From Odiellus spinosus (taxonomy: Eukaryota; Arthropoda; Arachnida; Opiliones; Phalangiidae), in NCBI GenBank assembly GCA_963920705.1, contig OY987234.1, positions 4,619,351-4,683,350 on the forward strand: a stretch of 64,000 bases of DNA, written 5' to 3'. The position numbers and the translations under genes were made by a program. The notes beneath the pieces were generated by a model. The model worked only from the letters and a program-made list of their open reading frames with translations, searched no databases and was not told the DNA's origin. Of this stretch, positions 607-54,412 are shown one piece after another. Positions within the stretch are counted from its first letter, which is position 1. Each line of letters begins with the position of its first letter.

Positions 607-3600
607 ATTTTAAATGGGTCGAAGGAGATGTTTGCGAAGTTTCACTTCAAGTATACAACCCATTGCCTTTCGAATTGAGAGTTTCGCATATGGTATTTAT
701 ATCAAATAGCGCCAGGGACTAGTGGAACAAGAGAGAACATTTGAGTTAACCATATAGATCCGCTCTCACAATGACAGTACTTGCATAGGCTAAGCCCTAG
801 GACTTTTAACAATGGACACAATCTTAAAACATAAATAGTAATAACAAAATCTGACATTCTAACGACAAACTGGGTGGGGGCAAAAGTAGAACTAACAAAA
901 CCACATGCACCATCTGTATATGCTATATCAAGAATAGATTTAACGCAAGAATATGGAAGAGCTATACCTTTGTCTGCGCCTGAATCATGACCAAATTTTA
1001 TTTTAAAATGCAATATATTTTTTAGCATTAACAGCTGGGGCTCCCACCAGGTCCCTAAACTACCTAATAGTCCCTATTTTATTTCTAGGTCCCTAAAATA
1101 CCCTATGATTGTAATTTGGTCCATAAAATACTCTCTTTTCAATAATTCCAGGGAATCTCGTTCGTCTGAAATTTCACACTTTGGGTGGGTCAAAATAAAA
1201 GCTCTTCCCACAAAAGGAAGAATTCTTACGAATACCCGTAGAAATTATAATTTTCTCAAAATAATAAATCTTAGGATTTTGACGCACCCTATATTTCAAA
1301 ATGTGTTGCATTTTGTTTTTCTTGGGTCGAAATTTTTTCTATAAATGGCACTTTGAAACAAAGACAAAATAGCACTTCCCATTAAAAGGTAATTACTCTG
1401 AAATTGAGGAAGAACGATAGTAACTCAAATTTTTCCTCTTGCTTCAATAAGTCCCTGATAGTACTTTAAAAAACCTTAACAATTGTGTGACTATTGGTGC
1501 TTATGATTTTTATGACTTAATCCCTGCTTAACTTTGACCATTAAGATCAAATGTGAGCCTAAAGTACTTATCAATGCCTCCCTAACTCTCCATGATAGTA
1601 CGGGACACGAAAAATCGTCATTTGCTCCTATAAAGGGTGTTTCGAAAATGGTGGTAGGACCGAGCTACACTGGGTTATATTAAGGCGAAAATATTTTATG
1701 ACGTTTTGTCGTACGAGGCGCTGTTTAAGAGTTACGGAATGAATCATGTGCGGATGACCCCTTAACTTACATTAATAAACATATACTCTGATAAAATATG
1801 CTTAACAGTTTATAAAGCATGCGCGTTTTTAAACTACCAGCTAAATAATTAACTGTATTTTATCATTGTGTATACGTTTTTTAATGTAAGTTAAGGGGTC
1901 ATCCGCGCTTGATTCATTTCGTAACTCTTAAACGGTGCCCCGTATGACAAAACGTCATACAACAACATCTTAAAATGACCCATAGAACACACTGTAGCTC
2001 GGTCCTACCACCATTTTCGAAACACCCTGTATAGGGTGTTCCACTTGGAAAATCCTGCGTTGAAGGAGTTACTGAGTCATAGATTTTTCTAGGTGATATA
2101 TTTTCTAAATTTACGTTGCACCGAAGCTCGAAGCTTTTAATTGAGTGAGATAAGTTAGGTATTCAGCGAGACTCAAAGTTCTCCGAAATGAACCCACTGG
2201 AATTCCCTATAAGCTAAACAAATCATTTATCATCTTTCTCAAGAATTATGCCCCTTAAGGTTGTTATTAATATTTTTAGGGTCTGATGGCAAAATTAGAA
2301 CCAGCGGTGGAAAGTTTGACTAGTTCCTTTGAAAGTTTCCCCGCCTGCCTTTCTTTGCCAGCCGAATCTGGACCGTATCCCGTTAATTTGTTGGGTACAC
2401 CCAGAGCCTCAGGCGAGCTTCACATTTTAGGATATACCACGCATGTTCTGGGTGTTAAGAATAACTGCAAATTAAAGGAACTCAAAGCTATCAAGGAAAA
2501 TTCATTTATAATCGATGTTATACCCTGTTTACCGCAACTTCAACTTTCCACTTCATTACCAAAATCCAGCGTCTTTTCTAGTCTCGGGGATACAAGTCAT
2601 GTTGTGATGAATGCCGCAGTTTCCCTTTATTCGGGTGAAAGGTGAGAACCAAAAAGTATAATCCTTATTATACATGAATTGTATTAGAACATGTCAAGGC
2701 TACGTCAACAAAGCTTTTTGAAAGATTTTAACTATTTGAGCTCTTACATAAAGATGACTGTAATGAACCAGAACTATTTAAATATTCGAAGGTTATTTTT
2801 AAATGGTGGCCCATCAACTAACTCAATCGACAAAATTGGCGTCACCTGACGGCTACAAAACACTAGTTAACTGATTTGAACACTTTAGTATTGAATACTA
2901 CGCATAAGTTACACTTGTTGAACTGTTAAACAAACGCAAAAGATTTATTTGACGAGATCAGGTTCCACGTTTGACTGCCTCAATTCCTCTGAATATTCTT
3001 CAGCTTTTATCAGCTCCCATCCCTGGTCGCCGACTATAGCGCCTTCTATCCAACGTGACGTCAGACATAAAAGATAAGCCTGATGAGACACGTCTGCTTT
3101 TACTTAAGGTTATTTTTCAATTTGTGAAATGACGTCACGACGCTTAGTGGTTAAACACGGACACCAAAATGAAAGTCGGTTTCTTGATCAGTGTTACCTT
3201 GGTGATGTCCCAGGCGTACCAACCAATTGCGACGCTTGTGGGTGTAAAGATAAGTCACACCTGTTACTGACATATACTAGGCCTTGGAGTTGAGTTGGGA
3301 ACCAGTTTCATTTACTGGTTCGGCTTCAAAAGCAGACAGAACTATAATAATTATGTTTATGAAGTTGATACATGAACATATATATTAAAACCATTCCAAG
3401 CGATTTAAGTATCAGTTAGATTTTTTTTTTTTTTTTGATTAAAATTAATTGGCAGTCTCAAATTTTATAAAATTCAGTTTTTTTCCTCAAAAATCTTTGC
3501 TGTATGTAGACAAGATCAATGTTGCAATTGGGGGTGGCCTTGAGAAATATCTCGGGGAATTGGAATCTTCTCTTACCCTTCTCTGAATCGAAGAATACGT

Positions 3601-23154: not shown

Positions 23155-24592
23155 TTGCCAACCACGAAAATCAATTTACCGCGAAAGAGCAGTTAAAAAC
23201 CCGCGAAAATTCGGGAAAAGCCGCGAAACTTCAAAATTGTTCTATACATTTATATTTTGCTATTGTGAATACAGTCCAGCATTGTTTTTAATTTATTTGA
23301 TTGAAAAAAAATTCTATCTTAGATTCTTAACAATTTAATCATTTTGATCCAATAAAGGGCAAGGTTTCCGATAACCGACCCCCCTCCCCCCATATAACGA
23401 TGGTTTTGAACTAATTAGGACCTCGGGAGTTTAGAAAAAAATACTTAAAAAAATCTTCAACCATCGGAAGTTTGAGAACAACGCATTTCAAAATTTGAAG
23501 TTTGCATGTTAAATCCCATAGATTCTAACCCAAATCTAGAATGAACAGCACCCAACTACTGTCAGTAACTGTAAGGTTTGACATTTTACCAGGTTTAATG
23601 TGATATTGCTCAGTCGGTACTCACCAATTGAACGTTAATGGAGTAATTCCCTTTCCTATCTAAATACGCGTTTTTCTCCATAACAGGTGCTTTTATATTT
23701 ACATGCGTGCAGTCAATAGCACCTACCACATCGGGGAATGCGCAGCGAGTGGCAAATGACCTCTGTCAGGGAAAGGGTTGTTACTCATGTGCCATTCTAA
23801 TTGGGGCTTACCTATCTTTAATACCTTCACTTCTCGAACTTCAGCATCTTCGAGGGGCCATCGAATGAGATGTCTCTTAACGGCAATAAGAGCATTGGTA
23901 ACACGCTCAATGGCCCTACTAACAGAAGGTTGGCTCATGCCATGCTCGTAGTTGCTAGCTACCACACGCTGGAAACTTCCTGAGCCATAAAACAACAGTG
24001 CCGCAAGAACTTCATCCTCAACAGTCAAAACATAGAGACCTTCGATGTACTGTTTTGATAGCTGTAACGTCGGTCGTAACTCTTCACATAATGCGCGTAC
24101 ATTTTCCTTCGTAAATCGGTACTGCAATAGGAACTCCCTGTCTGGCAAAAGGAAGGCATTTCTCCTAAAGCGCTATTACTCAGACCAAGAAGGATCCTTC
24201 TTGCTCAGACCCAGACCGTCAGACGAGAAAGTGGAAAACGGGGGTCGGTCGAAGCCTATTTTGAAGATTGGGGGTGTTCCATACATAACATTTAAAAGTT
24301 ATTAACAGCTTTTATGAACTCTTTCGAGTCCGGTGCACGTATGCTCCGAGCTAAAAATCAATTTTGGTTTTAATTTTTTAAGCTATTTGCCTATTACTAT
24401 TAGTTTTCTGATTTTTTTTCCAAGAAAAACCGAAAACCGCGAATTTAAAATCAAAAAACCGCGATTGAAATTAAAAAACCGCGAAATTAAAATCAAAAAC
24501 CGCGAACCCGCGAAGACCAAAAAAAAACCGCGATGACTCGAGAAAAACCGCGAAAATTCGCGGAAAAACCGCGAGGCTGGCAACGCTGAATT
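23155..24592. mobile_element. hAT-like element with internal 'ACCGCGAA' repeats, hosting a Harbinger fragment
   Basis: Left end GGATTGCCAACCACGAAAAT and right end inverse of CAGCGTTGCCAGCCTCGCGG, a typical CAGxGTTGCCA type of end. Both flanks are filled with irregular AAACCGCGAA phrases (23175-23230 and 24430-24575). The middle holds the Harbinger transposase remnant, so one element lies inside the other. Exact ends and target duplication not fixed. Confidence 0.5.
23592..24148 (-). pseudogene. Broken PIF/Harbinger (HARBI1-like) transposase, N-terminal half
   Basis: From ATG at 24148 the frame reads MPDREFLLQYRFTKENVRAL and on through MSQPSVSRAIERV. After a frame change near 23762 it continues RSFATRCAFPDVVGAIDCTH and then NAYLDRKGNYSIN, ending at 23592. 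FPDVVGAIDCTH carries the first catalytic aspartate of the DDE triad of Harbinger nucleases; the remaining catalytic part is absent. GTAAGC...CTGACAG bracket the break and could be a short intron, but the phase does not fit, so I call a frameshift. Consensus knowledge is of the HARBI1/Harbinger family. Confidence 0.8.
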
Positions 24593-25127: not shown

Positions 25128-25389
25128 CGTGTCCTGGTCAATGGATTCATGAACCAGTTTATTTATTCCAGGCCAGGGGGTTGTGGGTTGTGGTCATAGT
25201 TAAAAGGTTACTTATTTCTCACCCTGATTCTTGCTAAGACGCTATCATGTAGACCGGAACAATGTCTGCTAAGGTGCTGTAATAGAAACACAAATACATG
25301 TATTTTTACCCTAGAGATAAAGATAACACGGATAACACCAGGCGGCGGCCGTATCGGTCCAGGAAAGAACTGCTGCAACTGCACTGAAC

Positions 25390-25619
25390 CAGGGACGGAA
25401 TTTTTCTTATTAGACAAATGTCCAGAAACCCCCCTAAAAAATTCAAAAGTTATCGGACATTTAACAAAATTACCGGACAATGGTACATTTCTTGCATTGA
25501 AATGTACTTTTTTTTATCGGACATTTGTCCAGTGACCCCCTCTTAAAAATTAAAAGTTATCGGACATTTGGAAAATTTATCGGACAATGACCAGTGGGTT
25601 GTGCTTATTTCCGTCCCTG
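25390..25619. mobile_element. hAT-like MITE (CAGGGACGG family), copy 1
   Basis: 230 bp, ends CAGGGACGGAA and inverse, perfect 8-bp duplication CACTGAAC at 25382-25389 and 25620-25627. Interior has GGACATTTGTCC and AAAAGTTATCGGACATTT phrases in both orientations. Same family as 43831-44069. Confidence 0.9.
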
Positions 25620-25650
25620 CACTGAACTAGAGAAAAAAAACCAAAAACAC

Positions 25651-25768
25651 ACCACCGTCAATCTGCCAGAATACGCCCTAATAAAGCGTATCGTCGCTGG
25701 GTGGATTATTCCACCAGATCCGCGACGAACGATATAGCTATAACCAATTTCAGACTAAGGTAGAAACG
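25651..25768 (+). repeat. Left terminal inverted repeat of the 12.7-kb element
   Basis: About 115 bp, matching the complement of 38228-38346 with few differences, including CTGGGTGGATTATTCCACC, AGATCCGCGA and ATAGCTATAACCAA. The palindromic GGTGGATTATTCCACC could be a transposase binding site (inference). Confidence 0.9.
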
Positions 25769-25930
25769 AACGGATTTATTAATTTTAAGCTGAATAACTA
25801 CACGGTATATGAAAAAAAAATAATTAAAACGAAAAAAATATTAATAATTGCTATACGTGTGTAAATGCGTTTCGTTTTAAATATAACTTTTTAACAGATA
25901 ATCAATTGTGGCGCCCACGTTCATCAAAAC

Positions 25931-28900
25931 GGAATTTTTACAGGGAAATTAATCAATTTAGAAAGTGAACAATATGGGGTTATGGATTATATCTCCGCTC
26001 ACACACATAGGAACTTTCTGAAATTAAAACATATTGTAGAGTATTTAATTATCTATCCAATGGTACTAGCGTCATATCTGGGCCCTAAGCCGTTTTGGAG
26101 TTATTAATAATAATTCACATGGAAAAAAATCTCTACTCAAAAATTCCTACAGAAAATTGTTAGGGGGGTTGACATTTTGGTTAATATCTCCGCTCACACA
26201 CATAGAAACCTCCTGAAATTAAAACATATTGTAGAGTATTTAATTATCTATCCAATGGTACTAGCGTCATATCTGGGCCCTAAGCCGTTTTGGAGTTATT
26301 AATAATAATTCACATAGAAAAAAATCTCTTCTCAAAAATATACATATAGTAAATTGTTAGGGGGGTTGGAATTTCTGCTAATATCTCCGCTCACACACAT
26401 AGGAACCGTCTGAAATTAAAACATATTGTAGAGTATTTAATTATCTATCCAATGGTACTAGCGTCATATCTGGGCCCTAAGCCGTTTTGGAGTTATTAAA
26501 TAATTCACATAGAAAAAAATCTCTACTCAAAAATTCCTACAGAAAATTGTTAGGGGGTTGGCTTTTTGGTTAATATCTCCGCTCACACACATAGGAACCT
26601 TTTGAAATTAAAACATATTGTAGAGTATTTAATTATCTATCCACTGGTAATAGCGTCATATCTGGGCCCTAAGCCGTTTTGGAGTTATTAATAATAATTC
26701 ACATAGGAAAAAATCTCAACTCAAAAATTCCTACAGAAAATTGTTAGGGGGGGTTGGCATTTTGGTTAATATCTCCGCTCACACACATAGGAACCTTTTG
26801 AAATTAAAACATATTGTAGAGTATTTAATTATCTATCCACTGGTACTAGCGTCATATCTGGGCCCTAAGCCGTTTTGGAGTTATTAATAATAATTCACAT
26901 AGAAAAAAAATCTCTACTCAAAAATATACATATAGTAAATTGTTAGGGGGGGTTGGAATTTCTGCTAATATCTCCGCTCACACACATAGGAACCTTTTGA
27001 AATTAAAACATATTGTAGAGAATTTAATTATCTATCCAATGGTACTAGCGTCATATCTGGGCCCTAAGCCTTTTTGGAGTTATTAATAATAATTCACATA
27101 GAAAAAAATCTCTTCTCAAAAATATACATATAGTAAATTGTTAGGGGGGGTTGGAATTTCTGCTAATATCTCCGCTCACACACATAGGAACCGTCTGAAA
27201 TTAAAACATATTGTAGAGTATTTAATTATCTATCCAATGGTACTAGCGTCATATCTGGGCCCTAAGCCGTTTTGGAGTTATTAAATAATTCACATAGAAA
27301 AAAATCTCTACTCAAAAATTCCTACAGAAAATTGTTAGGGGGTTGGCTTTTTGGTTAATATCTCCGCTCACACACATAGGAACCTTTTGAAATTAAAACA
27401 TATTGTAGAGTATTTAATTATCTATCCACTGGTAATAGCGTCATATCTGGGCCCTAAGCCGTTTTGGAGTTATTAATAATAATTCACATAGGAAAAAATC
27501 TCAACTCAAAAATTCCTACAGAAAATTGTTAGGGGGGGTTGGCATTTTGGTTAATATCTCCGCTCACACACATAGGAACCTTTTGAAATTAAAACATATT
27601 GTAGAGTATTTAATTATCTATCCACTGGTACTAGCGTCATATCTGGGCCCTAAGCCGTTTTGGAGTTATTAATAATAATTCACATAGGAAAAAATCTCAA
27701 CTCAAAAATTCCTACAGAAAATTGTTAGGGGGGGTTGGCATTTCGGTTAATATCTCCGCTCACACACATAGGAACCTTTTGAAATTAAAACATATTGTAG
27801 AGTATTTAATTATCTATCCAATGGTACTAGCGTCATATCTGGGCCCTAAGCCGTTTTGGAGTTATTAAATAATTCACATAGAAAAAAATCTCTACTCAAA
27901 AATTCCTACAGAAAATTGTTAGGGGGGTTGGCTTTTTGGTTAATATCTCCGCTCACACACATAGGAACCTTTTGAAATTAAAACATATTGTAGAGTATTT
28001 AATTATCTATCCACTGGTAATAGCGTCATATCTGGGCCCTAAGCCGTTTTGGAGTTATTAATAATAATTCACATGGAAAAAAATCTCTACTCAAAAATAC
28101 CTATATACAGAACATTGTTAGGGGGTTGGCATTTTGGTTAATATCTCCGCTCACACACATAGGAACCTTTTGAAATTAAAACATATTAGAGTATTTAATT
28201 ATCTATCCACTGGTACTAGCGTCATATCTGGGCCCTAAGCCGTTTTGGAGTTATTAATAATAATTCACATAGAAAAAAAATCTCTACTCAAAAATATACA
28301 TATAGTAAATTGTTAGGGGGGGTTGGAATTTCTGCTAATATCTCCGCTCACACACATAGGAACCTTTTGAAATTAAAACATATTGTAGAGAATTTAATTA
28401 TCTATCCAATGGTACTAGCGTCATATCTGGGCCCTAAGCCGTTTTGGAGTTATTAATAATAATTCACATAGAAAAAAATCTCTTCTCAAAAATATACATA
28501 TAGTAAATTGTTAGGGGGGGTTGGAATTTCTGCTAATATCTCCGCTCACACACATAGGAACCGTCTGAAATTAAAACATATTGTAGAGTATTTAATTATC
28601 TATCCAATGGTACTAGCGTCATATCTGGGCCCTAAGCCGTTTTGGAGTTATTAAATAATTCACATAGAAAAAAATCTCTACTCAAAAATTCCTACAGAAA
28701 ATTGTTAGGGGGGTTGGCTTTTTGGTTAATATCTCCGCTCAAACACATAGGAACCTTTTGAAATTAAAACATATTGTAGAGTATTTAATTATCTATCCAC
28801 TGGTAATAGCGTCATATCTGGGCCCTAAGCCGTTTTGGAGTTATTAAAAATAATTCACATAGGAAAAAATCTCAACTCAAAAATTCCTACAGAAAATTGT

Positions 28901-31900
28901 TAGGGGGGTTGGCATTTTGGTTAATATCTCCGCTCACACACATAGGAACCTTCTGAAATTAAAACATATTGTAGAGTATTTAATTATCTATCCAATGGTA
29001 CTAGCGTCATATCTGGGCCCTAAGCCGTTTTGGAGTTATTAAATAATTCACATAGAAAAAAATCTCTACTCAAAAATTCCTACAGAAAATTGTTAGGGGG
29101 GTTGGCTTTTTGGTTAATATCTCCGCTCACACACATAGGAACCTTTTGAAATTAAAACATATTGTAGAGTATTTAATTATCTATCCACTGGTAATAGCGT
29201 CATATCTGGGCCCTAAGCCGTTTTGGAGTTATTAATAATAATTCACATAGGAAAAAATCTCAACTCAAAAATTCCTACAGAAAATTGTTAGGGGGGTTGG
29301 CATTTTGGTTAATATCTCCGCTCACACACATAGGAACCTTCTGAAATTAAAACATATTGTAGAGTATTTAATTATCTATCCAATGGTACTAGCGTCATAT
29401 CTGGGCCCTAAGCCGTTTTGGAGTTATTAAATAATTCACATAGAAAAAAATCTCTACTCAAAAATTCCTACAGAAAATTGTTAGGGGGGTTGGCTTTTTG
29501 GTTAATATCTCCGCTCACACACATAGGAACCTTTTGAAATTAAAACATATTGTAGAGTATTTAATTATCTATCCACTGGTAATAGCGTCATATCTGGGCC
29601 CTAAGCCGTTTTGGAGTTATTAATAATAATTCACATGGAAAAAAATCTCTACTCAAAAATACCTATATACAGAACATTGTTAGGGGGTTGGCATTTTGGT
29701 TAATATCTCCGCTCACACACATAGGAACCTTTTGAAATTAAAACATATTGTAGAGTATTTAATTATCTATCCACTGGTACTAGCGTCATATCTGGGCCCT
29801 AAGCCGTTTTGGAGTTATTAATAATAATTCACATAGAAAAAAAATCTCTACTCAAAAATATACATATAGTAAATTGTTAGGGGGGGTTGGAATTTCTGCT
29901 AATATCTCGGCTCACACACATAGGAACCTTTTGAAATTAAAACATATTGTAGAGAATTTAATTATCTATCCAATGGTACTAGCGTCATATCTGGGCCCTA
30001 AGCCGTTTTGGAGTTATTAATAATAATTCACATAGAAAAAAATCTCTTCTCAAAAATATACATATAGTAAATTGTTAGGGGGGGTTGGAATTTCTGCTAA
30101 TATCTCCGCTCACACACATAGGAACCGTCTGAAATTAAAACATATTGTAGAGTATTTAATTATCTATCCAATGGTACTAGCGTCATATCTGGGCCCTAAG
30201 CCGTTTTGGAGTTATTAAATAATTCACATAGAAAAAAATCTCTACTCAAAAATTCCTACAGAAAATTGTTAGGGGGGTTGGCTTTTTGGTTAATATCTCC
30301 GCTCACACACATAGGAACCTTTTGAAATTAAAACATATTGTAGAGTATTTAATTATCTATCCACTGGTAATAGCGTCATATCTGGGCCCTAAGCCGTTTT
30401 GGAGTTATTAATAATAATTCACATAGGAAAAAATCTCAACTCAAAAATTCCTACAGAAAATTGTTAGGGGGGTTGGCATTTTGGTTAATATCTCCGCTCA
30501 CACACATAGGAACCTTCTGAAATTAAAACATATTGTAGAGTATTTAATTATCTATCCAATGGTACTAGCGTCATATCTGGGCCCTAAGCCGTTTTGGAGT
30601 TATTAATAATAATTCACATGGAAAAAAATCTCTACTCAAAAATACCTATATACAGAACATTGTTAGGGGGTTGGCATTTTGGTTAATATCTCCGCTCACA
30701 CACATAGGAACCTTTTGAAATTAAAACATATTGTAGAGTATTTAATTATCTATCCACTGGTACTAGCGTCATATCTGGGCCCTAAGCCGTTTTGGAGTTA
30801 TTAATAATAATTCACATAGAAAAAAAATCTCTACTCAAAAATATACATATAGTAAATTGTTAGGGGGGGTTGGAATTTCTGCTAATATCTCCGCTCACAC
30901 ACATAGGAACCGTCTGAAATTAAAACATATTGTAGAGTATTTAATTATCTATCCAATGGTACTAGCGTCATATCTGGGCCCTAAGCCGTTTTGGAGTTAT
31001 TAATAATAATTCACATAGAAAAAAATCTCTTCTCAAAAATATACATATAGTAAATTGTTAGGGGGGGTTGGAATTTCTGCTAATATCTCCGCTCACACAC
31101 ATAGGAACCGTCTGAAATTAAAACATATTGTAGAGTATTTAATTATCTATCCAATGGTACTAGCGTCATATCTGGGCCCTAAGCCGTTTTGGAGTTATTA
31201 AATAATTCACATAGAAAAAAATCTCTACTCAAAAATTCCTACAGAAAATTGTTAGGGGGTTGGCTTTTTGGTTAATATCTCCGCTCACACACATAGGAAC
31301 CTTTTGAAATTAAAACATATTGTAGAGTATTTAATTATCTATCCACTGGTAATAGCGTCATATCTGGGCCCTAAGCCGTTTTGGAGTTATTAATAATAAT
31401 TCACATAGGAAAAAATCTCAACTCAAAAATTCCTACAGAAAATTGTTAGGGGGGGTTGGCATTTTGGTTAATATCTCCGCTCACACACATAGGAACCTTT
31501 TGAAATTAAAACATATTGTAGAGTATTTAATTATCTATCCACTGGTACTAGCGTCATATCTGGGCCCTAAGCCGTTTTGGAGTTATTAATAATAATTCAC
31601 ATAGGAAAAAATCTCAACTCAAAAATTCCTACAGAAAATTGTTAGGGGGGGTTGGCATTTCGGTTAATATCTCCGCTCACACACATAGGAACCTTTTGAA
31701 ATTAAAACATATTGTAGAGTATTTAATTATCTATCCAATGGTAATAGCGTCATATCTGGGCCCTAAGCCGTTTTGGAGTTATTAATAATAATTCACATAG
31801 GAAAAAATCTCAACTCAAAAATTCCTACAGAAAATTGTTAGGGGGGTTGGCTTTTTGGTTAATATCTCCGCTCACACACATAGGAACCTTTTGAAATTAA

Positions 31901-34900
31901 AACATATTGTAGAGTATTTAATTATCTATCCACTGGTACTAGCGTCATATCTGGGCCCTAAGCCGTTTTGGAGTTATTAATAATAATTCACATAGAAAAA
32001 AAATCTCTACTCAAAAATATACATATAGTAAATTGTTAGGGGGGGTTGGAATTTCTGCTAATATCTCCGCTCACACACATAGGAACCTTTTGAAATTAAA
32101 ACATATTGTAGAGAATTTAATTATCTATCCAATGGTACTAGCGTCATATCTGGGCCCTAAGCCGTTTTGGAGTTATTAATAATAATTCACATAGAAAAAA
32201 ATCTCTTCTCAAAAATATACATATAGTAAATTGTTAGGGGGGGTTGGAATTTCTGCTAATATCTCCGCTCACACACATAGGAACCGTCTGAAATTAAAAC
32301 ATATTGTAGAGTATTTAATTATCTATCCAATGGTACTAGCGTCATATCTGGGCCCTAAGCCGTTTTGGAGTTATTAAATAATTCACATAGAAAAAAATCT
32401 CTACTCAAAAATTCCTACAGAAAATTGTTAGGGGGTTGGCTTTTTGGTTAATATCTCCGCTCACACACATAGGAACCTTTTGAAATTAAAACATATTGTA
32501 GAGTATTTAATTATCTATCCACTGGTAATAGCGTCATATCTGGGCCCTAAGCCGTTTTGGAGTTATTAATAATAATTCACATAGGAAAAAATCTCAACTC
32601 AAAAATTCCTACAGAAAATTGTTAGGGGGGGTTGGCATTTTGGTTAATATCTCCGCTCACACACATAGGAACCTTTTGAAATTAAAACATATTGTAGAGT
32701 ATTTAATTATCTATCCACTGGTACTAGCGTCATATCTGGGCCCTAAGCCGTTTTGGAGTTATTAATAATAATTCACATAGGAAAAAATCTCAACTCAAAA
32801 ATTCCTACAGAAAATTGTTAGGGGGGGTTGGCATTTCGGTTAATATCTCCGCTCACACACATAGGAACCTTTTGAAATTAAAACATATTGTAGAGTATTT
32901 AATTATCTATCCAATGGTACTAGCGTCATATCTGGGCCCTAAGCCGTTTTGGAGTTATTAAATAATTCACATAGAAAAAAATCTCTACTCAAAAATTCCT
33001 ACAGAAAATTGTTAGGGGGGTTGGCTTTTTGGTTAATATCTCCGCTCACACACATAGGAACCTTTTGAAATTAAAACATATTGTAGAGTATTTAATTATC
33101 TATCCACTGGTAATAGCGTCATATCTGGGCCCTAAGCCGTTTTGGAGTTATTAATAATAATTCACATGGAAAAAAATCTCTACTCAAAAATACCTATATA
33201 CAGAACATTGTTAGGGGGTTGGCATTTTGGTTAATATCTCCGCTCACACACATAGGAACCTTTTGAAATTAAAACATATTGTAGAGTATTTAATTATCTA
33301 TCCACTGGTACTAGCGTCATATCTGGGCCCTAAGCCGTTTTGGAGTTATTAATAATAATTCACATAGAAAAAAAATCTCTACTCAAAAATATACATATAG
33401 TAAATTGTTAGGGGGGGTTGGAATTTCTGCTAATATCTCCGCTCACACACATAGGAACCTTTTGAAATTAAAACATATTGTAGAGAATTTAATTATCTAT
33501 CCAATGGTACTAGCGTCATATCTGGGCCCTAAGCCGTTTTGGAGTTATTAATAATAATTCACATAGAAAAAAATCTCTTCTCAAAAATATACATATAGTA
33601 AATTGTTAGGGGGGTTGGAATTTCTGCTAATATCTCCGCTCACACACATAGGAACCGTCTGAAATTAAAACATATTGTAGAGTATTTAATTATCTATCCA
33701 ATGGTACTAGCGTCATATCTGGGCCCTAAGCCGTTTTGGAGTTATTAAATAATTCACATAGAAAAAAATCTCTACTCAAAAATTCCTACAGAAAATTGTT
33801 AGGGGGGTTGGCTTTTTGGTTAATATCTCCGCTCAAACACATAGGAACCTTTTGAAATTAAAACATATTGTAGAGTATTTAATTATCTATCCACTGGTAA
33901 TAGCGTCATATCTGGGCCCTAAGCCGTTTTGGAGTTATTAAAAATAATTCACATAGGAAAAAATCTCAACTCAAAAATTCCTACAGAAAATTGTTAGGGG
34001 GGTTGGCATTTTGGTTAATATCTCCGCTCACACACATAGGAACCTTCTGAAATTAAAACATATTGTAGAGTATTTAATTATCTATCCAATGGTACTAGCG
34101 TCATATCTGGGCCCTAAGCCGTTTTGGAGTTATTAAATAATTCACATAGAAAAAAATCTCTACTCAAAAATTCCTACAGAAAATTGTTAGGGGGGTTGGC
34201 TTTTTGGTTAATATCTCCGCTCACACACATAGGAACCTTTTGAAATTAAAACATATTGTAGAGTATTTAATTATCTATCCACTGGTAATAGCGTCATATC
34301 TGGGCCCTAAGCCGTTTTGGAGTTATTAATAATAATTCACATAGGAAAAAATCTCAACTCAAAAATTCCTACAGAAAATTGTTAGGGGGGTTGGCATTTT
34401 GGTTAATATCTCCGCTCACACACATAGGAACCTTCTGAAATTAAAACATATTGTAGAGTATTTAATTATCTATCCAATGGTACTAGCGTCATATCTGGGC
34501 CCTAAGCCGTTTTGGAGTTATTAAATAATTCACATAGAAAAAAATCTCTACTCAAAAATTCCTACAGAAAATTGTTAGGGGGTTGGCTTTTTGGTTAATA
34601 TCTCCGCTCACACACATAGGAACCTTTTGAAATTAAAACATATTGTAGAGTATTTAATTATCTATCCACTGGTAATAGCGTCATATCTGGGCCCTAAGCC
34701 GTTTTGGAGTTATTAATAATAATTCACATAGGAAAAAATCTCAACTCAAAAATTCCTACAGAAAATTGTTAGGGGGGGTTGGCATTTCGGTTAATATCTC
34801 CGCTCACACACATAGGAACCTTTTGAAATTAAAACATATTGTAGAGTATTTAATTATCTATCCAATGGTACTAGCGTCATATCTGGGCCCTAAGCCGTTT

Positions 34901-34966
34901 TGGAGTTATTAAATAATTCACATAGAAAAAAATCTCTACTCAAACATTCCTACAGAAAATTGTTAG
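25931..34966 (+). repeat. Satellite array, forward block, about 46 monomers of 192-198 bp
   Basis: Each monomer contains TTAATATCTCCGCTCACACA, then AAATTAAAACATATTGTAGA, TAATTATCTATCCA, GCGTCATATCTGGGCCCTAA, CCGTTTTGGAGTTATTAA and ends TTGTTAGGGGGGTTGG. Monomers differ by a small set of recurring variants (AACCGTCTG/AACCTTTTG/AACCTTCTG; CTCTACTC/CTCAACTC/CTCTTCTC; TTCCTACAG/ATACATATAG linkers) arranged in repeated orders. No coding potential; the few open frames are repeat artefacts. Confidence 0.97.
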
Positions 34967-36480
34967 GAATTTTTGAGTAGAGATTTTTTTCTATGTGAAT
35001 TATTTAATAACTCCAAAACGGCTTAGGGCCCAGATATGACGCTAGTACCATTGGATAGATAATTAAATACTCTACAATATGTTTTAATTTCAGACGGTTC
35101 CTATGTGTGTGAGCGGAGATATTAGCAGAAATTCCAACCCCCCCTAACAATTTACTATATGTATATTTTTGAGTAGAGATTTTTTCTATGTGAATTATTA
35201 TTAATAACTCCAAAACGGCTTAGGGCCCAGATATGACGCTAGTACCATTGGATAGATAATTAAATACTCTACAATATGTTTTAATTTCAGAAGGTTCCTA
35301 TGTGTGTGAGCGGAGATATTCACCAAAATTCCAACCCCCCCTAACAATTTACTATATTTTTGAGTAGAGATTTTTTTCTATGTGAATTATTATTAATAAC
35401 TCTAAAACGGCTTAGGGCCCAGATATGACGCTAGTACCATTGGATAGATAATTAAATTATCTGCAATATGTTTTAATTTCAAAAGGTTCCTATGTGTGTG
35501 AGCGGAGATATTCACCAAAATTCCAACCCCCCTAACAATTTTCTGTAGGAATTTTTGAGTAGAGATTTTTTTCTATGTGAATTATTATCAATAACTCCAA
35601 AACGGCTTAGGGCCCAGATATGACGCTAGTACCATTGGATACATAATTAAATACTCTACAATATGTTTTAATTTCAAAAGCTTCCTATGTGTGTGAGCGG
35701 AGATATTAACCAAAATTCCAACCCCCCCTAACAATTTACTATATTTTTGAGTAGAGATTTTTTTCTAAGTGAATTATTATTAATAACTCCAAAACGGCTT
35801 AGGGCCCAGATATGACGCTAGTACCGTTGGATAGATAATTAAATTCTCTACAATATGTTTTAATTTCAAAAGGTTGCTATGTGTGTGAGCGGAGATATTC
35901 ACCAAAATTCCAACCCCCCCTAACAATTTTCTGTAGGAATTTTTGAGTAGAGATTTTTTTCTATGTGAATTATTATTAATAACTCTAAAACGGCTTAGGG
36001 CCCAGATATGACGCTAGTACCATTGGATAGATAATTAAATTATCTGCAATATGTTTTAATTTCAAAAGGTTCCTATGTGTGTGAGCGGAGATATTCACCA
36101 AAATTCCAACCCCCCTAACAATTTTCTGTAGGAATTTTTGAGTAGAGATTTTTTTCTATGTGAATTATTATTAATAACTCCAAAACGGCTTAGGGCCCAG
36201 ATATGACGCTAGTACCATTGGATAGATAATTAAATTCTCTGCAATATGTTTTAATTTCAAAAGGTTCCTATGTGTGTGAGCGGAGATATTACCAGTAGTT
36301 CCAACCCCCCCCCCCCTAACAATTTACTATATGTATATTTTTGAGTAGAGATTTATTTCTAAGTGAATTATTATTAATAACTCCAAAACGGCTTAGGGCC
36401 CAGATATGACGCTAGTACCGTTGGATAGATAATTAAATTCTCTACAATATAATCTAATTTCAAAAGGTTCCTATGTGTGT
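34967..36480 (-). repeat. Satellite array, inverted block, about 8 monomers
   Basis: The same monomer in the opposite orientation starts at about 34967, where CTCTACTCAAACATTCC folds back onto GGAATTTTTGAGTAGAG across a short spacer. Linkers are more variable than in the forward block (C-runs at 36306, missing ATGTAT segments). Confidence 0.95.
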
Positions 36481-38030
36481 GAGGGGAGTTATAAGACAAA
36501 ATATCCCCCCCCCCCTTGCAGAACTTGGAAAAAAAAAATGGAAATGACATTTTCTTAAATTTAACTATCTCTAACTTTTAAACTAGGCGAGGCCCAGATA
36601 TCAGACTAGTTTCATTCGATAGATAAATAAATTCTCTCTAACATATTTAAATTTGATATCGATCCTATGTGTGTGAGGGGAGTTATAAGCCACAATATCC
36701 CCCCCCCCTTGCAGAACTTGGAAAAAAAAAATGGAAATGACATTTTCTTAAATTTAACTATCTCTAACTTTTATACTAGGCGAGGCCCAGATATCAGACT
36801 AGTTTCATTCGATAGATAAATAAATTCTCTCTAACATATTTAAATTTGATATCGATCCTATGTGTGTGAGGGGAGTTATAAGACAAAATATCCCCCCCCC
36901 TTGCAGAACTTGGAAAAAAAAAATGGAAATGACATTTTCTTAAATTTAACTATCTCCAACTTTTAAACTAGGCGAGGCCCAGATATCAGACTAGTTTCAT
37001 TCGATAGATAAATAAATTCTCTCTAACATATTTAAATTTGATATCGATCCTATGTGTGTGAGGGGAGTTATAAGACAAAATATCCCCCCCCCTTGCAGAA
37101 CTTGGAAAAAAAAATGGAAATGACATTTTCTTAAATTTAACTATCTCTAACTTTTAAACTAGGCGAGGCCCAGATATCAGACTAGTTTCATTCGATAGAT
37201 AAATAAATTCTCTCTAACATATTTAAATTTGATATCGATCCTATGTGTGTGAGGGGAGTTATAAGCCACAATATCCCCCCCCCCTTGCAGAACTTGGAAA
37301 AAAAAAATGGAAATGACATTTTCTTAAATTTAACTATCTCTAACTTTTAAACTAGGCGAGGCCCAGATATCAGACTAGTTTCATTCGATAGATAAATAAA
37401 TTCTCTCTAACATATTTAAATTTGATATCGATCCTATGTGTGTGAGGGGAGTTATAAGCCACAATATCCCCCCCCCCTTGCAGAACTTGGAAAAAAAAAA
37501 TGGAAATGACATTTTCTTAAATTTAACTATCTCTAACTTTTAAACTAGGCGAGGCCCAGATATCAGACTAGTTTCATTCGATAGATAAATAAATTCTCTC
37601 TAACATATTTAAATTTGATATCGATCCTATGTGTGTGAGGGGAGTTATAAGACAAATATCCCCCCCCCCCTTGCAGAACTTGGAAAAAAAAAATGGAAAT
37701 GACATTTTCTTAAATTTAACTATCTCCAACTTTTAAACTAGGCGAGGCCCAGATATCAGACTAGTTTCATTCGATAGATAAATAAATTCTCTCTAACATA
37801 TTTAAATTTGATATCGATCCTATGTGTGTGAGGGGAGTTATAAGCCACAATATCCCCCCTTGCAGAACTTGGAAAAAAAAAATGGAAATGACATTTTCTT
37901 AAATTTAACTATCTCTAACTTTTAAACTAGGCGAGGCCCAGATATCAGACTAGTTTCATACGATAGATAATTAAATGCTTAATAACATATTTAAATTTGA
38001 TATGGATCCTATGTGTTTGACAGGAGTTGT
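36481..38030 (-). repeat. Satellite array, divergent subfamily, about 8 monomers of 190-194 bp
   Basis: Orientation as the inverted block, but distinct sequence: CTTGCAGAACTTGG, TGGAAATGACATTTTCTTAA, ACTAGGCGAGGCCCAGATAT, CAGACTAGTTTCATTCGATA, TTTGATATCGATCCTATGTG. Homology to the main monomer is clear over GGCCCAGATAT...GATAGATAA and CCTATGTGTGTGAG(C/G)GGAG. Copies are nearly identical to each other. Confidence 0.95.
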
Positions 38031-38227
38031 AAGTCAAAGTACCTTACGTACAAGCTATACTAATTTGTTTAGGGCGCTCTATTGGTTAATTTTTCCCTTT
38101 TATAGTCTGAATAAATAAATATTTTCATAATAAAATTACATTAAAAGTATAAAATATCTTAAGCCTAGATTTAATGTTTTTTCCGTTAATTTTTTCCATA
38201 ATTAAATCACGTTTTTGGTCGAAAAAT

Positions 38228-38346
38228 GCTTGTTTACTTTAGTCTGGAGTTGGTTATAGCTATTTCGTCCATCGCGGATCTGGTGGAATAATCCACCCAG
38301 TTTCGATACTCTATATTAGGGCATATTCTGGCAGATTGACGGTGGT
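38228..38346 (-). repeat. Right terminal inverted repeat of the 12.7-kb element
   Basis: Inverse of the left repeat; ends GACGGTGGT directly before the CAAAAACAC duplication. Confidence 0.9.
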
Positions 38347-38355
38347 CAAAAACAC

Positions 38356-38440
38356 TGGACATTGTCCGATAAATTTTTCAAGTGTGTCCCTAATTTTCGA
38401 GAGGGGATCACTAGACAAATATCCTATAAGAAAAAGTACT
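38356..38440. mobile_element. Fragment of the CAGGGACGG-type MITE
   Basis: GGACATTGTCCGATAAATTT, GTGTCCCTAATTTTCGAGAG and GGGGATCACTAGACAAAT resemble the interior of 25390-25619 and 43831-44069. Ends are missing or degraded. Confidence 0.5.
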
Positions 38441-38597: not shown

Positions 38598-40048
38598 ATG
38601 AAATTTTCAAATAAATTAGTTATAAAGGTTATAGAGAACTCCACCAGATTTTTTAAGTTTTTCATGACCGAAAATTCAGACCCTCCAACTAAAAGATTAT
38701 TGACAATGTCCAAAACTATCGGTACACACAATGGAACCTTCCATTGCGACGAAGTACTAGCTTGTTCGATGCTAAAAATGCTTCCCATTTATAAAGACGC
38801 TGAAATTGTAAGAACCAGAGATCCAAATCTTCTTAAAGATTGTGATATTGTGGTTGATGTTGGAGGAGTTTACGATCCAACCATTCAGAGATACGACCAT
38901 CATCAAAGGTAAATTACTTTCTTATCTCAGATTTTTATTAAAAATCAACGCGATACTATTAATATATTCCACTCAGAACCTTCGTGGAATCTATGAACAG
39001 TTTAAAACCTGAAAAACCGTGGGTTACGAAGCTGAGTAGCGCTGGTTTGATCTATTGTCATTTTGGCCACAGTATCATCGAGGAAGTCCTGGGAATCAAA
39101 ACTGAAGATCCTATTGTGGGCGCAGTCTATGATAAGGTGTACAAGAACTTTGTGGAAGAGATTGACGCGATTGACAATGGTATCTCTACCCACGATGGCC
39201 CACCTAGATACCTAATAGCCACAAATTTGAGTCAACGAGTTAGTCATTTGAATCCCAACTGGAAAGAACCAACCGATGACAAATCGGTTAGATATTTATT
39301 ATTAGATTTTTGTTTACTGAAGAAGGTTTGACCTCTATAGTAAAAAAAAAAGTCGAAATATCGATTAAATGTCAAAATATTGGTTTTAACAAAATTTTGC
39401 TTGCAACGAAAAATCGCTTGGATCAAAAAAATGTTAAAAAGAAGTTGCGCTTTTAACGAAATTTCGCTAGCTAGCAAAATTTTGCTCTAACGAGGATTTC
39501 TTGTATTTCATTAATTTCAGATGAGAATAAGATTCAATAAAGCCATGGAATTGGTTTCAACAGAGTTCCTGGAAAGAGTAAATTATTACAGCGACGTTTG
39601 GTGGCCAGTTAGAGCTTTAATTAAAGAAGCGATAGACAAAAGATTCTCCACGGATCCTAGTGGTGAAATTATGGAATTACAAAATGGAGGACTCCCTTGG
39701 AAAATGCATTTTTTCGAATTGGAAAGTGAAATGAAAATCGAAACTCCTATTAAATACGTCATTTATTCTGATACCAATGGAAGTTACAGGGTTCAGTGTG
39801 TACCTGTAGACGAAACTAGCTTCGTGAATCGGTAATTTTTTAATTTTCCACTTGCAATATATTGAGTAATTAATTTTTTTAGGTTATCTCTTCCGGAACC
39901 TTGGCGGGGCGTGAGAGACGAAGATCTGTCCAAATTAATTGGCATTCCAGGGGCAATATTCATACACAGCAATGGATTTATCGGAGGGCATTCCAGCCGT
40001 GAAGGAGCCTTACAAATGGCTCAAAAAGCCTTGCGTTTTACTGCGTAG
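38598..40048 (+). CDS. MYG1: MYG1 exonuclease (UPF0160 family), complete, 4 exons
   Basis: 3'-5' RNA exonuclease of the DHH-like MYG1 family, reported to act on RNA in nucleolus and mitochondria. Exons 38598-38908, 38977-39286, 39521-39831, 39883-40048; total 365 aa, close to the usual size of about 375. Family hallmarks are THNGTFHCDE and DIVVDVGGVYDP, then RYDHHQRTF across the first junction, KLSSAGLIYCHFGH, FVEEIDAIDNGIS, DPSGEIMEL, IQCVP-like RVQCVPVDE and the C-terminal GFIGGHSSREGAL. The start at 38598 gives a basic, hydrophobic leader (MKFSNKLVIKVIEN) suited to mitochondrial import; later ATGs at 38664 and 38706 would give a shorter, nuclear form. AATAAA-like signals follow at about 40073. 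All introns are GT-AG and short (51-234 nt). Confidence 0.97.
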
Positions 40049-43830: not shown

Positions 43831-44069
43831 CAGGGACGGAAATAAGCACAAGTCATTGATCATTTGTCGGATAAATTTTCCAAATGTCCGATAACTTTTT
43901 ATTTTTAAGAGGGGGTCACTGGACAAATGTCCGATAAAAAAATGTACTTTTCAATACAGGAAATGTAGCATTGTCCGGTAATTTTGTTAAATGTCCAATA
44001 ACTTTTGAATTTTTAAGGGGGGTTACTGGACATTTGTCCAATAAGAAAAATTTCTTATTTCCGTCCCTG
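43831..44069. mobile_element. hAT-like MITE (CAGGGACGG family), copy 2
   Basis: 239 bp, ends CAGGGACGGAAATAAG and inverse; perfect 8-bp duplication GTAGTACT at 43823-43830 and 44070-44077. Interior matches the copy at 25390. Confidence 0.92.
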
Positions 44070-44089
44070 GTAGTACTAGATAACTAAAT

Positions 44090-50600: not shown

Positions 50601-53600
50601 AGGCTGGCCCATCCAGGACCTTAAAATACCTAAAATTAAAATTAGGTACTCTTATTTTCAATAATTCCATGGAATATTGCGAATCTGAATAATTTTCACT
50701 TTACTGACTTTCGGTGGGTCAAAATACTAAAAATTATGAGATAATTATGAAAATAATTCTTGGGATTTTGACGCATTCTCTTTTTCGAAAGGTACCTGCG
50801 CAGAATTCACAAACTGGGATAAATGATATCTCATATGGTTTTTAATTGGTCCCTATTTGGTGATCATATAGAATTTTTGGTCCCTATTTGGTGATCTTAT
50901 AGATTTTTGGTCCCTATTTGGTGATCCTATAGAATTTTGGTCCCTATTTGGTGATCCTATAGAATTTTGGTCCCTATTTGGTGATCCTATAGAATTTTGG
51001 TCCCTATTTGGTGATCCTATAGAATTTTGGTCCCTATTTGGTGATCCTATAGAATTTTGGTCCCTATTTGGTGATCCTATAGTATTTTGGTCCCTATTTG
51101 GTGATCCTATAGAATTTTGGTCCCTATTTGGTGATCCTATAGAATTTTGGTCCCTATTTCGTGATACTTTAGAATTTTGGTCCCTATTTGGTGATCCAGT
51201 AGAATTTTGGTCTCTATTTTTAGATCCTATATAATTTTGGTCCCTATTTGGTGATGCTATAGAATTTTGGTCCCTATTTGGTGATGCTATAGAATTTTGG
51301 TCCCTATTTGGTGATCCTATAGAAGTTTGGTCCCTATTTGGTGATCCTATAGAAGTTTGGTCCCTATTTGGTGATCCTATAGAAGTTTGGTCCCTATTTG
51401 GTGATCCTATAGAAGTCTGGTCCCTATTTGGTGATCCTATAGAAGTTTGTTCCCTATTCGGTGATCCTATAGAATTTTGGTCCCTATTCGGTGATCCTAT
51501 AGAATTTTTCTCCCTATTTTGTCAGTGATCCTTTAGAATTTTTGTCCCTATTTGGTGATCCTATAGAATTTTGGTCCCTATTTCGTGATCCTTTAGAATT
51601 TTGGTCCCTATATGGTGATCCTATAGAATTTTGGTCCCTATTTATTGATCTTATAGAATTTTGGTTCCTATTTATTGATCTTATAGAATTTCGGTCCCTA
51701 TTTGGTGATCCTATAGAATTTTGGTCCATTTTTGGTCCCTTATCTTTAGAATTTTGCTCCATTTTTGGCCCCTTATCTTTAGATTTTTGGTCCTTATTTG
51801 GTGAGACTTTTGGTCCCTATTTGGTGAGACTTTTGGTCCCTATTTGGTGATCCTTTAGAATTTTGGTCCCTATTTCGTGATACTTAAGAATTTTGGTCTC
51901 TATTTGGTGATCCAGTAGAATTTTGGTCTCTATTTTTAGATCCTATATAATTTTGGTCTCTATTTTTAGATCCTATATAATTTTGGTCCCTATTTGGTGA
52001 TGCTATAGAATTTTGGTCCCTATTTGGTGATGCTATAGAATTTTGGTCCCTATTTGGTGATGCTATAGAAGTTTGGTCCCTATTTGGTGATCCTATAGAA
52101 TTTTGGTCCCTATTTGGTGATCCTATAGAATTTTGGTCCCTATTAGTGATCCTATAGAATTTTTGTCCCTATTTTGTCGGTGATCCTATAGAATTTTTGT
52201 CCCTATTTGGTGATCCTATAGAATTTTGGTCCCTATATGGTGATCCTATAGAATTATGGTCCCTATTTATTGATCTTATAGAATTTTGTTTCCTATTTAT
52301 TGATCTTATAGAATTTCGGTCCCTATTTGGTGATCCTATAGAATTTTGGTCCCTATTTGGTGATCCTATAGAATTTTGGTCCCTATTTGGTGATCCTATA
52401 GAATTTTGGTCGCTATTTGGTGATCCTATAGAATTTTGGTCGCTATTTGGTGATCCTATAGAATTTTGGTCCCTATTTGGTGATCCTATAGAATTTTGGT
52501 CCCTATTTGGTGATCCTATAGAATTTTGGTCCCTATTTGGTGATCCTATAGTATTTTGGTCCCTATTTGGTGATCCTATAGAATTTTGGTCCCTATTTGG
52601 TGATCCTATAGAATTTTGGTCCCTATTTCGTGATACTTTAGAATTTTGGTCCCTATTTGGTGATCCAGTAGAATTTTGGTCTCTATTTTTAGATCCTATA
52701 TAATTTTGGTCTCTATTTTTAGATCCTATAGAATTTTGGTCCCTATTTGGTGATGCTATAGAATTTTGGTCCCTATTTGGTGATGCTATAGAATTTTGGT
52801 CCCTATTTGGTGATCCTATAGAAGTTTGGTCCCTATTTGGTGATCCTATAGAAGTTTGGTCCCTATTTGGTGATCCTATAGAAGTTTGGTCCCTATTTGG
52901 TGATCCTATAGAAGTTTGGTCCCTATTTGGTGATCCTATAGAAGTTTGGTCCCTATTTGGTGATCCTATAGAAGTTAGGTCCCTATTCGGTGATCCTATA
53001 GAATTTTGGTCCCTATTCGGTGATCCTATAGAATTTTGGTCCCTATTCGGTGATCCTATATAATTTTTGTCCCTATTTGGTGATCCTATAGAATTTTGGT
53101 CCCTATTTCGTGATCCTTTAGAATTTTGGTCCCTATATGGTGATCCTATAGAATTTTGGTCCCTATTTATTGATCTTATAGAATTTTGGTTCCTATTTAT
53201 TGATCTTATAGAATTTCGGTCCCTATTTGGTGATCCTATAGAATTTTGGTCCATTTTTGGTCCCTTATCTTTAGAATTTTGCTCCATTTTTGGCCTCTTA
53301 TCTTTAGATTTTTGGTCCTTATTTGGTGATCATATCTTTAGATTTTTGGTCCTTATTTGGTGATCCTATCTTTAGACTTTTGGTCCCTATTTGGTGAGAC
53401 TTTTGGTCCCTATTTGGTGATCCTTTAGAATTTTGGTCCCTATTTCGTGATACTTTAGAATTTTGGTCCCTATTTGGTGATCCAGTAGAATTTTGGTCTC
53501 TATTTTTAGATCCTATATAATTTTGGTCTCTATTTTTAGATCCTATATAATTTTGGTCCCTATTTGGTGATGCTATAGAATTTTGGTCCCTATTTGGTGA

Positions 53601-54412
53601 TGCTATAGAATTTTGGTCCCTATTTGGTGATGCTATAGAAGTTTGGTCCCTATTTGGTGATCCTATAGAATTTTGGTCCCTATTTGGTGATCCTATAGAA
53701 TTTTGGTCCCTATTCGGTGATCCTATAGAATTTTTGTCCCTATTTTGTCGGTGATCCTATAGAATTTTTGTCCCTATTTGGTGATCCTATAGAATTTTGG
53801 TCCCTATTTCGTGATCCTTTAGAATTTTGGTCCCTATATGGTGATCCTATAGAATTATGGTCCCTATTTATTGATCTTATAGAATTTTGTTTCCTATTTA
53901 TTGATCTTATAGAATTTCGGTCCCTATTTGGTGATCCTATAGAATTTTGGTCCCTTATCTTTAGAATTTTGGTCCATTTTTGGTCCCTTTAGAATTTTGC
54001 TCCATTTTTGGCCCCTTATCTTTAGATTTTTGATCTTTATTTGGTGATCCTATCTTTAGACTTTTGGTCCCTATTTGGTGTGACTTTTGGTCCCTATTTG
54101 GTGATCCTATCTTTAGACTTTTGGAACCTATTTTGGCCAATTTGTTTTGTAAAAAGTCTTTTCTCCCAATTTTATTTTCGTTTTTTGGTGGGAGTCCCAC
54201 TACGGTTACAGAATCCTGGCTAAGCCTAATTTAAACTCTGTACTTAGGGACATCATCCTACATTGGGAGCTCACGCTAAGTTTACTAATTACGAGTTTGA
54301 CGTCGATGAAACTTTGAGATTAGTTCAGAAAGCTGCGGATAAAGTAAGATCGCACGAAGCCTGGAAAAAAATGCAACAAGAAACTCATCCGGGTTTGAAA
54401 CAAGAACTCTAA
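44640..54412 (+). CDS. EOGT: EOGT, EGF-domain O-GlcNAc transferase, complete, 12 exons
   Basis: Transfers GlcNAc from UDP-GlcNAc to Ser/Thr of EGF repeats in the ER lumen (GT61 family). Exons: 44640-44848, 44909-45017, 45086-45186, 45248-45462, 45532-45635, 45727-45813, 46044-46115, 47229-47294 (or to 47312), 49836-49904, 49981-50159, 50458-50560, 54248-54412. About 492 aa. Signal peptide [20 protein letters not shown]; then [90 protein letters not shown] and [16 protein letters not shown], and [19 protein letters not shown] in the last exon. It ends KQEL, a KDEL-type ER retrieval signal. All phases join. The exon 8 donor is uncertain (both choices keep frame). Confidence 0.96.
46268..46599. 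mobile_element. MITE in EOGT intron 7
   Basis: Arms TGGATGTATAAAGAACTAAC, then GTTCATGGATATTGCACTC, inverted at 46557-46597. Possible TGAGAG duplication at the edges. The open frames within are arm artefacts. Confidence 0.8.
47650..49690 (-). pseudogene. Degenerate non-LTR retrotransposon (reverse transcriptase remnant)
   Basis: Reading the minus strand from right to left: [17 protein letters not shown] (about 49440-49500), [17 protein letters not shown] (about 49230-49280; the first catalytic aspartate motif of a non-LTR reverse transcriptase), [29 protein letters not shown] (about 48830-48900), [15 protein letters not shown] (about 48690-48740), then after a nested [21 protein letters not shown] (about 48090-48145). 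The usual YADD/FADD box is replaced by YALN, and stops and frame changes interrupt it. No endonuclease domain seen. CR1/jockey-like by motif order; clade not certain. Lies antisense in EOGT intron 8. Confidence 0.8.
48155..48592. mobile_element. MITE (CAGGGTTGCCAC ends) inserted in the retrotransposon
   Basis: Ends CAGGGTTGCCAC and inverse; GTTGA on both sides (48150-48154, 48593-48597). Subterminal AAAGTCAG(T/G)GAA phrases link it to the 'GTCAGGGAA' family elsewhere in the window. Confidence 0.75.
49929..49947. repeat. (AG)n microsatellite
   Basis: About nine AG units in EOGT intron 9, close to the 3' splice site of exon 10. Confidence 0.9.
50843..54140. repeat. 30-bp tandem array, about 110 copies, in the last EOGT intron
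   Basis: Unit GGTCCCTATTTGGTGATCCT plus ATAGAATTTT. Variants (TATTTATTGATCTTATAG, TTTTTAGATCCTATATAA, GATGCTATAG, CCCTTATCTTTAGA) recur as ordered blocks four times, indicating larger-scale duplications. Since 30 is divisible by three, the array is open in several frames on both strands (up to 372 codons of [14 protein letters not shown] repeats); these are not genes. It ends in TTTTGGTGGGAGTCCCAC just before exon 12. Confidence 0.97.

Follow-up and report, generated by a model that had tools for sequence, protein, structure and literature searches.

In a 64,000-nucleotide stretch of the Odiellus spinosus assembly (GCA_963920705.1, contig OY987234.1, forward-strand positions 4,619,351 to 4,683,350; hereafter the window, whose numbering is used unless a locus or contig label is given), a 12,696-bp block at 25651-38346, here named W, is bounded as a transposon and consists largely of satellite monomers. 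We regard W as a mobile, non-autonomous cut-and-paste element whose satellite body moved along with its ends, driven by a transposase of its relatives, with arms that recombine and a carrier family that most likely belongs to Rehavkus, and we assign this reading as a whole a probability of about 0.8. According to it, larger relatives that bear these ends too (the elements E9, E11 and E12 described below) would supply a transposase recognizing the 112-bp ends, a W-type unit would be inserted with a 9-bp target duplication, and the two inverted arms would grow, shrink and exchange through recombination between monomers. Such recombination would account for the unequal arms, the mixture of end types among the relatives (L/L, L/R and R/R) and the new centre of W. 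How satellites come to spread through euchromatin is commonly deduced from their resemblance to transposons. In the present assembly the carrier, the duplications, a common internal junction and a candidate enzyme are found together, which makes the order of expansion and jumping testable; if the satellite is indeed the body of a transposon, this would give a direct view of how long arrays are dispersed next to genes, the first ATG of the MYG1 frame being 252 bp away from the copy in the window.

Structure, relatives and movement of W

The left terminal inverted repeat (TIR; type L, 25651-25762, plus strand) and the right one (type R, 38235-38346, minus strand), both recovered by end alignment and genome search, agree at 100 of 112 positions over 112 bp in a local alignment scoring 164, the maximum score in 500 shuffles of the outer 200 bp per end being 29. 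A preliminary description of the window had given these ends as 115 bp; the inverted ends are real, and their length is corrected to 112 bp. The 9-bp target duplication that it reported stands: comparison of the flanks places CAAAAACAC exactly on both sides of W (25642-25650 and 38347-38355), and the word occurs just twice in the whole window. Inside the left TIR lie a 223-bp unique subterminal segment, Lsub (25763-25985, plus strand), which recurs with 100% identity in both ends of E1, and then the left array of 46 A monomers of about 196 bp (25989-34967, plus strand; tandem-repeat analysis, 46 anchor sites), which ends where the array changes direction, at a turn-round junction with a 4-bp TAGG overlap (34964-34967). 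The right arm, on the minus strand, is made up of eight inverted A monomers (about 34964-36492; tandem-repeat analysis), eight diverged, inverted B monomers of about 193 bp (36493-38033, the start being approximate, as the rows of Tandem Repeats Finder overlap) and the 201-bp unique subterminal segment Rsub (38034-38234), which is 100% identical in E2 and E3. The A and B monomers of this arm share a mean identity of about 65%, against 95-97% within either type; the arms described earlier as about 46 against 16 monomers are thus better given as 46 against 8+8, the right one being of two types. The arrays make up 94.9% of W and its longest stop-free stretch is 78 codons, which bears out the earlier estimate of about 95% tandem monomers and the statement that no protein is encoded.

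The paired ends that the preliminary description proposed to look for elsewhere do occur. In the assembly of 443,074,358 bases, the left end of W gave 43 matches, W included (68 candidates, 40 scored), and the right end 42 (62 candidates, 40 scored); 26 of the 43 left-end matches make 13 facing pairs, namely W and E1-E12, and later searches, among them the one with the right end, added E13, for 14 bounded elements in total. Among the remaining left-end matches, the end C4 has a truncated partner. A comparison of the first 33 bp of the W TIR with viral contigs returned no exact match. The elements are small (E1, 2,283 bp; E2 and E3, 3,428 bp; E4, 3,356 bp; E5, 4,142 bp; E13, 4,370 bp), of middle size (E6, 12,906 bp; E7, 11,877 bp; E8, 15,246 bp) or large (E9, 24,317 bp; E10, 23,533 bp; E11, 35,570 bp; E12, 57,697 bp). 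Queries made from the ends, the subterminal segments and the monomers cover 99.6-100% of W, E1, E2, E3, E4, E6 and E8 and leave no gap of 60 bp or more, so that these seven are satellite throughout; E7 was excluded from this set by 4,270 bp without monomers. The middle of E9 spans about 20 kb; in E11 it extends for about 17 kb before the first inverted array is reached.

The family has the foldback trait of long inverted arms of tandem repeats that vary among copies, and the same subterminal segments sit behind the ends of all elements inspected. Arms of type L contain A monomers only, and those of type R, in the L/R elements and E6, have B monomers outside and A monomers inside; W, E2, E3, E4, E7 and E8 are L/R, E1, E9 and E10 L/L, and E5, E6 and E13 R/R. 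At three places (L010 7443-7662, L020 301-519 and L022 4613-4814) TIRs adjoin diverged TIRs in a back-to-back arrangement, separated by a few to some tens of bases, as though older copies received new insertions at their ends, and extra 15-25-bp copies of the TIR tip lie directly outside the TIR at the right ends of L009 and L048 and the left end of L030. E11 and E12 probably contain other insertions: the right-hand A array of E11 runs over C9:350029-350994 and resumes from 364752, with no match listed between, in a stretch that the retrieved sequence covers in part. Within the split right part of E11, a 246-codon frame (L028 554-1294, minus strand) has a weak GIY-YIG match (E 0.006, below the cut-off) and may derive from a Penelope-like element. 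The contig C73 repeats the right flank of E12 at 29 of the 30 bases shown.

Exact 9-bp duplications, which the earlier description had also proposed to seek at other pairs, flank five of the 14 bounded elements (W, E3, E4, E6 and E7), each with a different word, and four of the seven satellite-only ones, while all 182 pairings of flanks taken from different elements show at least three mismatches. That the satellite-only form itself moved follows from the centres of the elements. E1, E2, E3, E6 and E8 share one centre with a short non-palindromic spacer. A 141-base query from it matched these five elements over 140-141 bases at 100%, and among the other matches listed of 654 (94 candidates, 39 scored) none exceeded 77 bases. 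Their flanks differ, save one that is common to E2 and E3. These two elements, in loci L010 and L011 (G000 C10:215186-223200 and C1:7806-11833), show no difference in the alignment (3,425 of 3,425 bases); one of their flanks is the same (300/300), the other is not. They may therefore represent a single insertion that was duplicated, rearranged or entered twice in the assembly, and the pattern may reflect a rearrangement that broke at the end of the element or else a duplication made in assembly. One centre at different flanks means that a unit without a gene reached at least four places, and E3 and E6, both with this centre, have exact and different 9-bp duplications. The centre of W is another one: allowing up to three mismatches, its turn-round junction is absent from all other family loci compared. 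At the left, the end of W matches both E1 ends exactly and comes close to identity with the L ends of E2, E3 and E8; at the right, it is identical to the ends of E2, E3 and E8 and, in the aligned columns, to that of E6, which is 12 bases longer.

Candidate transposase and probable carrier family

E9, E11 and E12 carry a putative transposase-like gene or parts of it. In E11 three successive minus-strand frames of 480, 718 and 881 codons lie in L026, and the 718-codon frame gave 66 matches in 25 clusters of the genome (104 candidates, 62 scored), the best being E11 itself and E9. The region in E9 falls within one open frame of 2,471 codons, of which the 1,959 codons in L020 contain Pfam matches to UCH (1.7e-8) and Peptidase_C48 (2.5e-6), that is, to USP and Ulp1 peptidases. 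Between these domains come a cysteine-rich finger and then a DDE-like region with DATG, SDR and CxxCH-like (C(2)H-like) motifs, which we take to be signatures of DDE transposases and Mutator-like elements (MULEs); residues 543-596 of the frame match PHD structures (E 5.4e-4). Seven of the 25 gene clusters lie within 20 kb of a left-end match, in 0.28% of the genome, and eight within 60 kb, in 0.72%; with the end located in the right-end search, C13 joins the seven as an eighth. A minisatellite of 27 bp x 26.9 occupies L020 3363-4053, between the end of the E9 frame (4119) and the arm that ends near 3030. The autonomous relative that the preliminary description had suggested searching for therefore has a candidate in E9, with a transposase-like gene between the same ends; we infer from the sequence that its central region is of the DDE type and that an E9-type enzyme moves the satellite-only copies.

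Drosophila FB/NOF elements, which are Mutator-related and have duplications of about 9 bp and composite arms of short tandem repeats, had been named as the nearest analogue; they are a fair structural one, and two other systems, compared here by the features described in the cited papers, are closer. Rehavkus-1_TC of Tribolium castaneum has a 164-bp satellite, TCsat23, in its inverted termini (PMC10218199), as the present elements have monomers of about 195 bp. It differs in measuring 9.5 kb with mostly five and eight monomers, whereas transposase-free elements here span 2.3-15.2 kb, reach 46 monomers in one run, have two arm types and are related to a 24-kb element in which USP and Ulp1 domains occur. 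The closest non-autonomous analogue, Tetris of Drosophila virilis, is likewise a foldback element with satellite-sized arm repeats: about 220-bp tandem repeats (TIR-220) with an outer flanking domain, duplications of 8-10 bp, and satellite arrays of up to 66 copies that are said to have arisen inside Tetris (PMC4079207); set against it, the present family has satellite-only copies with one common centre and a candidate transposase between the same ends. Tm1 (PMC3169594) and Muta1 (PMC5225508) resemble the family in their duplications of about 9 bp, composite tandem-repeat arms and relationship to Mutator, and differ in repeat size, theirs being 13-15 bp and 12 bp and the monomers here satellite-sized. 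With Rehavkus-1_TC and Tetris as precedents, the suggestion of an undescribed class of mobile satellite was too strong. Novel here are the satellite-only form, the presence of two arm types and a large relative with several domains; the transposase-free element with long arrays is a variant whose mobility is evident from the common junction. The literature consulted on Rehavkus, which did not extend to Repbase and most subscription papers, yielded no satellite-only copies of that superfamily.

The carrier most likely belongs to Rehavkus, a superfamily next to Mutator that is described as MULE-like, having a single frame that includes a PHD finger, target duplications of 9 bp, TIRs between 26 and 400 bp long and, ahead of the 3' TIR, a minisatellite (PMC6446971). 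The 112-bp TIRs of W and the minisatellite of E9 match these traits, and the 9-bp duplication is exact in the five elements named above and absent in the three that bear the gene. Rehavkus hosts are arthropods or annelids; the best RBM34 matches were to proteins from animals in several phyla, with no identity above 47%. Since the PHD match is weak and the likeness is one of description rather than protein comparison, membership is likely and not established. An ordinary Mutator/Phantom foldback family, such as FB, Muta1 and Tm1, appears a rather doubtful alternative. Duplications of 8-10 bp, TIRs longer than 100 bp and foldback arms are traits of Mutator as well (PMC5225508, PMC3169594), a cysteine-rich finger ahead of the DDE-like region would suit it, and the aphid Phantom also has a minisatellite after its transposase frame (PMC6446971, Table 1); but the weak PHD finger, the single giant frame and the minisatellite between gene and arm fit the Rehavkus row of the same table, and arthropod MULEs are given as 1.4-10.0 kb (PMC13359780), against 24.3 kb for E9.

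History of the arrays and competing readings

Direct exact matches to W of at least 200 bp number 62 in the L half of E8 (up to 865 bp), 17 in its R part (up to 493 bp), 31 in the left arm of E9 (up to 324 bp), nine each in E2 and E3, six and seven in E6, four in E1, one and none in E7, and none in E4 and the left parts of E10 and E11. Some of these counts fall in the ends, and the long E8 blocks fall in the array, where one 749-bp block common to both elements starts 3,080 bp inside E8; six monomer classes repeated in W are also present in E8. Exact blocks this deep in arrays at different sites indicate that the expanded array probably predates the divergence of W and E8. Exact repeats within W reach 1,116 bp, its 52 A monomers comprise 25 distinct sequences, and identical classes recur in broken blocks along the 45 whole monomers of the left array, a pattern such as unequal exchange would leave. 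For 48% of 229 A monomers from 11 elements, the nearest neighbour belongs to the element of origin; with the labels shuffled, the figure is 13%. The arrays probably expanded both before the W/E8 split and after it.

These results bear on two other histories. The preliminary description had offered a small miniature inverted-repeat transposable element (MITE) whose interior expanded after insertion; in its fuller form, a small foldback copy inserted at the W site, the array grew only later by unequal exchange, and large arrays never moved. Further expansion inside W is indeed visible in its internal repeats, its monomer classes and the excess of same-element neighbours, and small satellite-only copies of 2.3-3.4 kb exist. 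Nevertheless, the exact blocks and repeated classes that W and E8 share at different sites are explained more simply by an expanded ancestor, though exchange between copies could also produce them, and the satellite-only E6 has an exact duplication at 12.9 kb, so that we consider growth solely after insertion unlikely. Very improbable is the capture of a satellite array between two independent MITE copies, never mobile as a unit: the elements without an exact duplication and the TIRs standing back to back with diverged ones would agree with it, but the exact duplications contradict it for W, E3, E4, E6 and E7, and the same subterminal segments behind the inspected ends and one centre common to several sites argue against it as well.

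Several results weigh against the preferred reading, that of a satellite-bodied transposon moved by the enzyme of its relatives. No exact duplication is present at nine of the 14 elements (E1, E2, E5, E8, E9, E10, E11, E12 and E13), and the gene-bearing E9, E11 and E12 are all among them. Possible reasons are a short extra copy of the TIR tip in E1 and E13, the loss of 19 bp of one TIR in E10, the repeat-like stretch within which E8 lies and the diverged TIRs that E9 abuts. The middle is free of monomers over 2,571 bp in E5, 4,270 bp in E7 and about 16 kb in E10, and among the matches listed none to the transposase-like gene falls in the middle of E10, whose sequence is partly common to E11 and E5. 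Seventeen of the 25 gene clusters are more than 60 kb from a left-end match or on contigs without one. The PHD match in the E9 frame (PF00628, E 7e-4) scores 20.0 bits against a cut-off of 24, the DDE-like region matched no Pfam family, transposase families included, and no convincing solved structure, and an AlphaFold model of its 621-residue piece has a mean predicted local distance difference test score (pLDDT) of 34.6. The one outside homologue found for the frame, a protein from Rotaria, is 1,197 aa long and has 24% identity along about half of the query, and an alignment search found no further transposase relatives. A search with the right flank for an allele without W returned the window itself only.

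A-monomer queries gave 370 matches in the genome (139 candidates, 38 scored) and B-monomer queries 362 (124 candidates, 40 scored). Those listed for A, which do not include W's own, all lie in loci with a left-end match, and those listed for B, all but one (C1:21168757), in loci with a left- or right-end match; free monomer arrays may exist away from the ends. On balance we lean towards a satellite family that lives essentially only as the body of a transposon, in 2-15-kb units that would move as such, their arrays expanding and swapping arms from one jump to the next, with a giant PHD-USP-DDE-Ulp1 protein of the 24-kb relatives as the driver.

Surroundings of W

The MYG1 gene reported 250 bp from W is real, with PF03690 matched across three exons; the first ATG of its frame is at 38598, and later in-frame ATGs lie further off. 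Two MITE copies of about 240 bp, at 25388-25619 and 43831-44071, have ends like CAGGGACGGAAATAAG and are 90% identical, and a diverged inverted MITE piece at 38353-38439 adjoins W. With one copy to its left and the diverged piece to its right, W went in next to MITEs or between two of them. We considered, and set aside, the possibility that W lies within a larger inverted repeat formed by its flanks, as the left neighbour is a MITE copy that matches 43831-44071 along its length. A 149-codon frame at 23723-24172 (minus strand), without a Pfam match, resembles by eye a piece of PIF/Harbinger transposase. Further to the right, a 3.3-kb minisatellite at 50846-54110, with 109 copies of a unit of about 30 bp, overlaps a mechanical frame of 372 codons.

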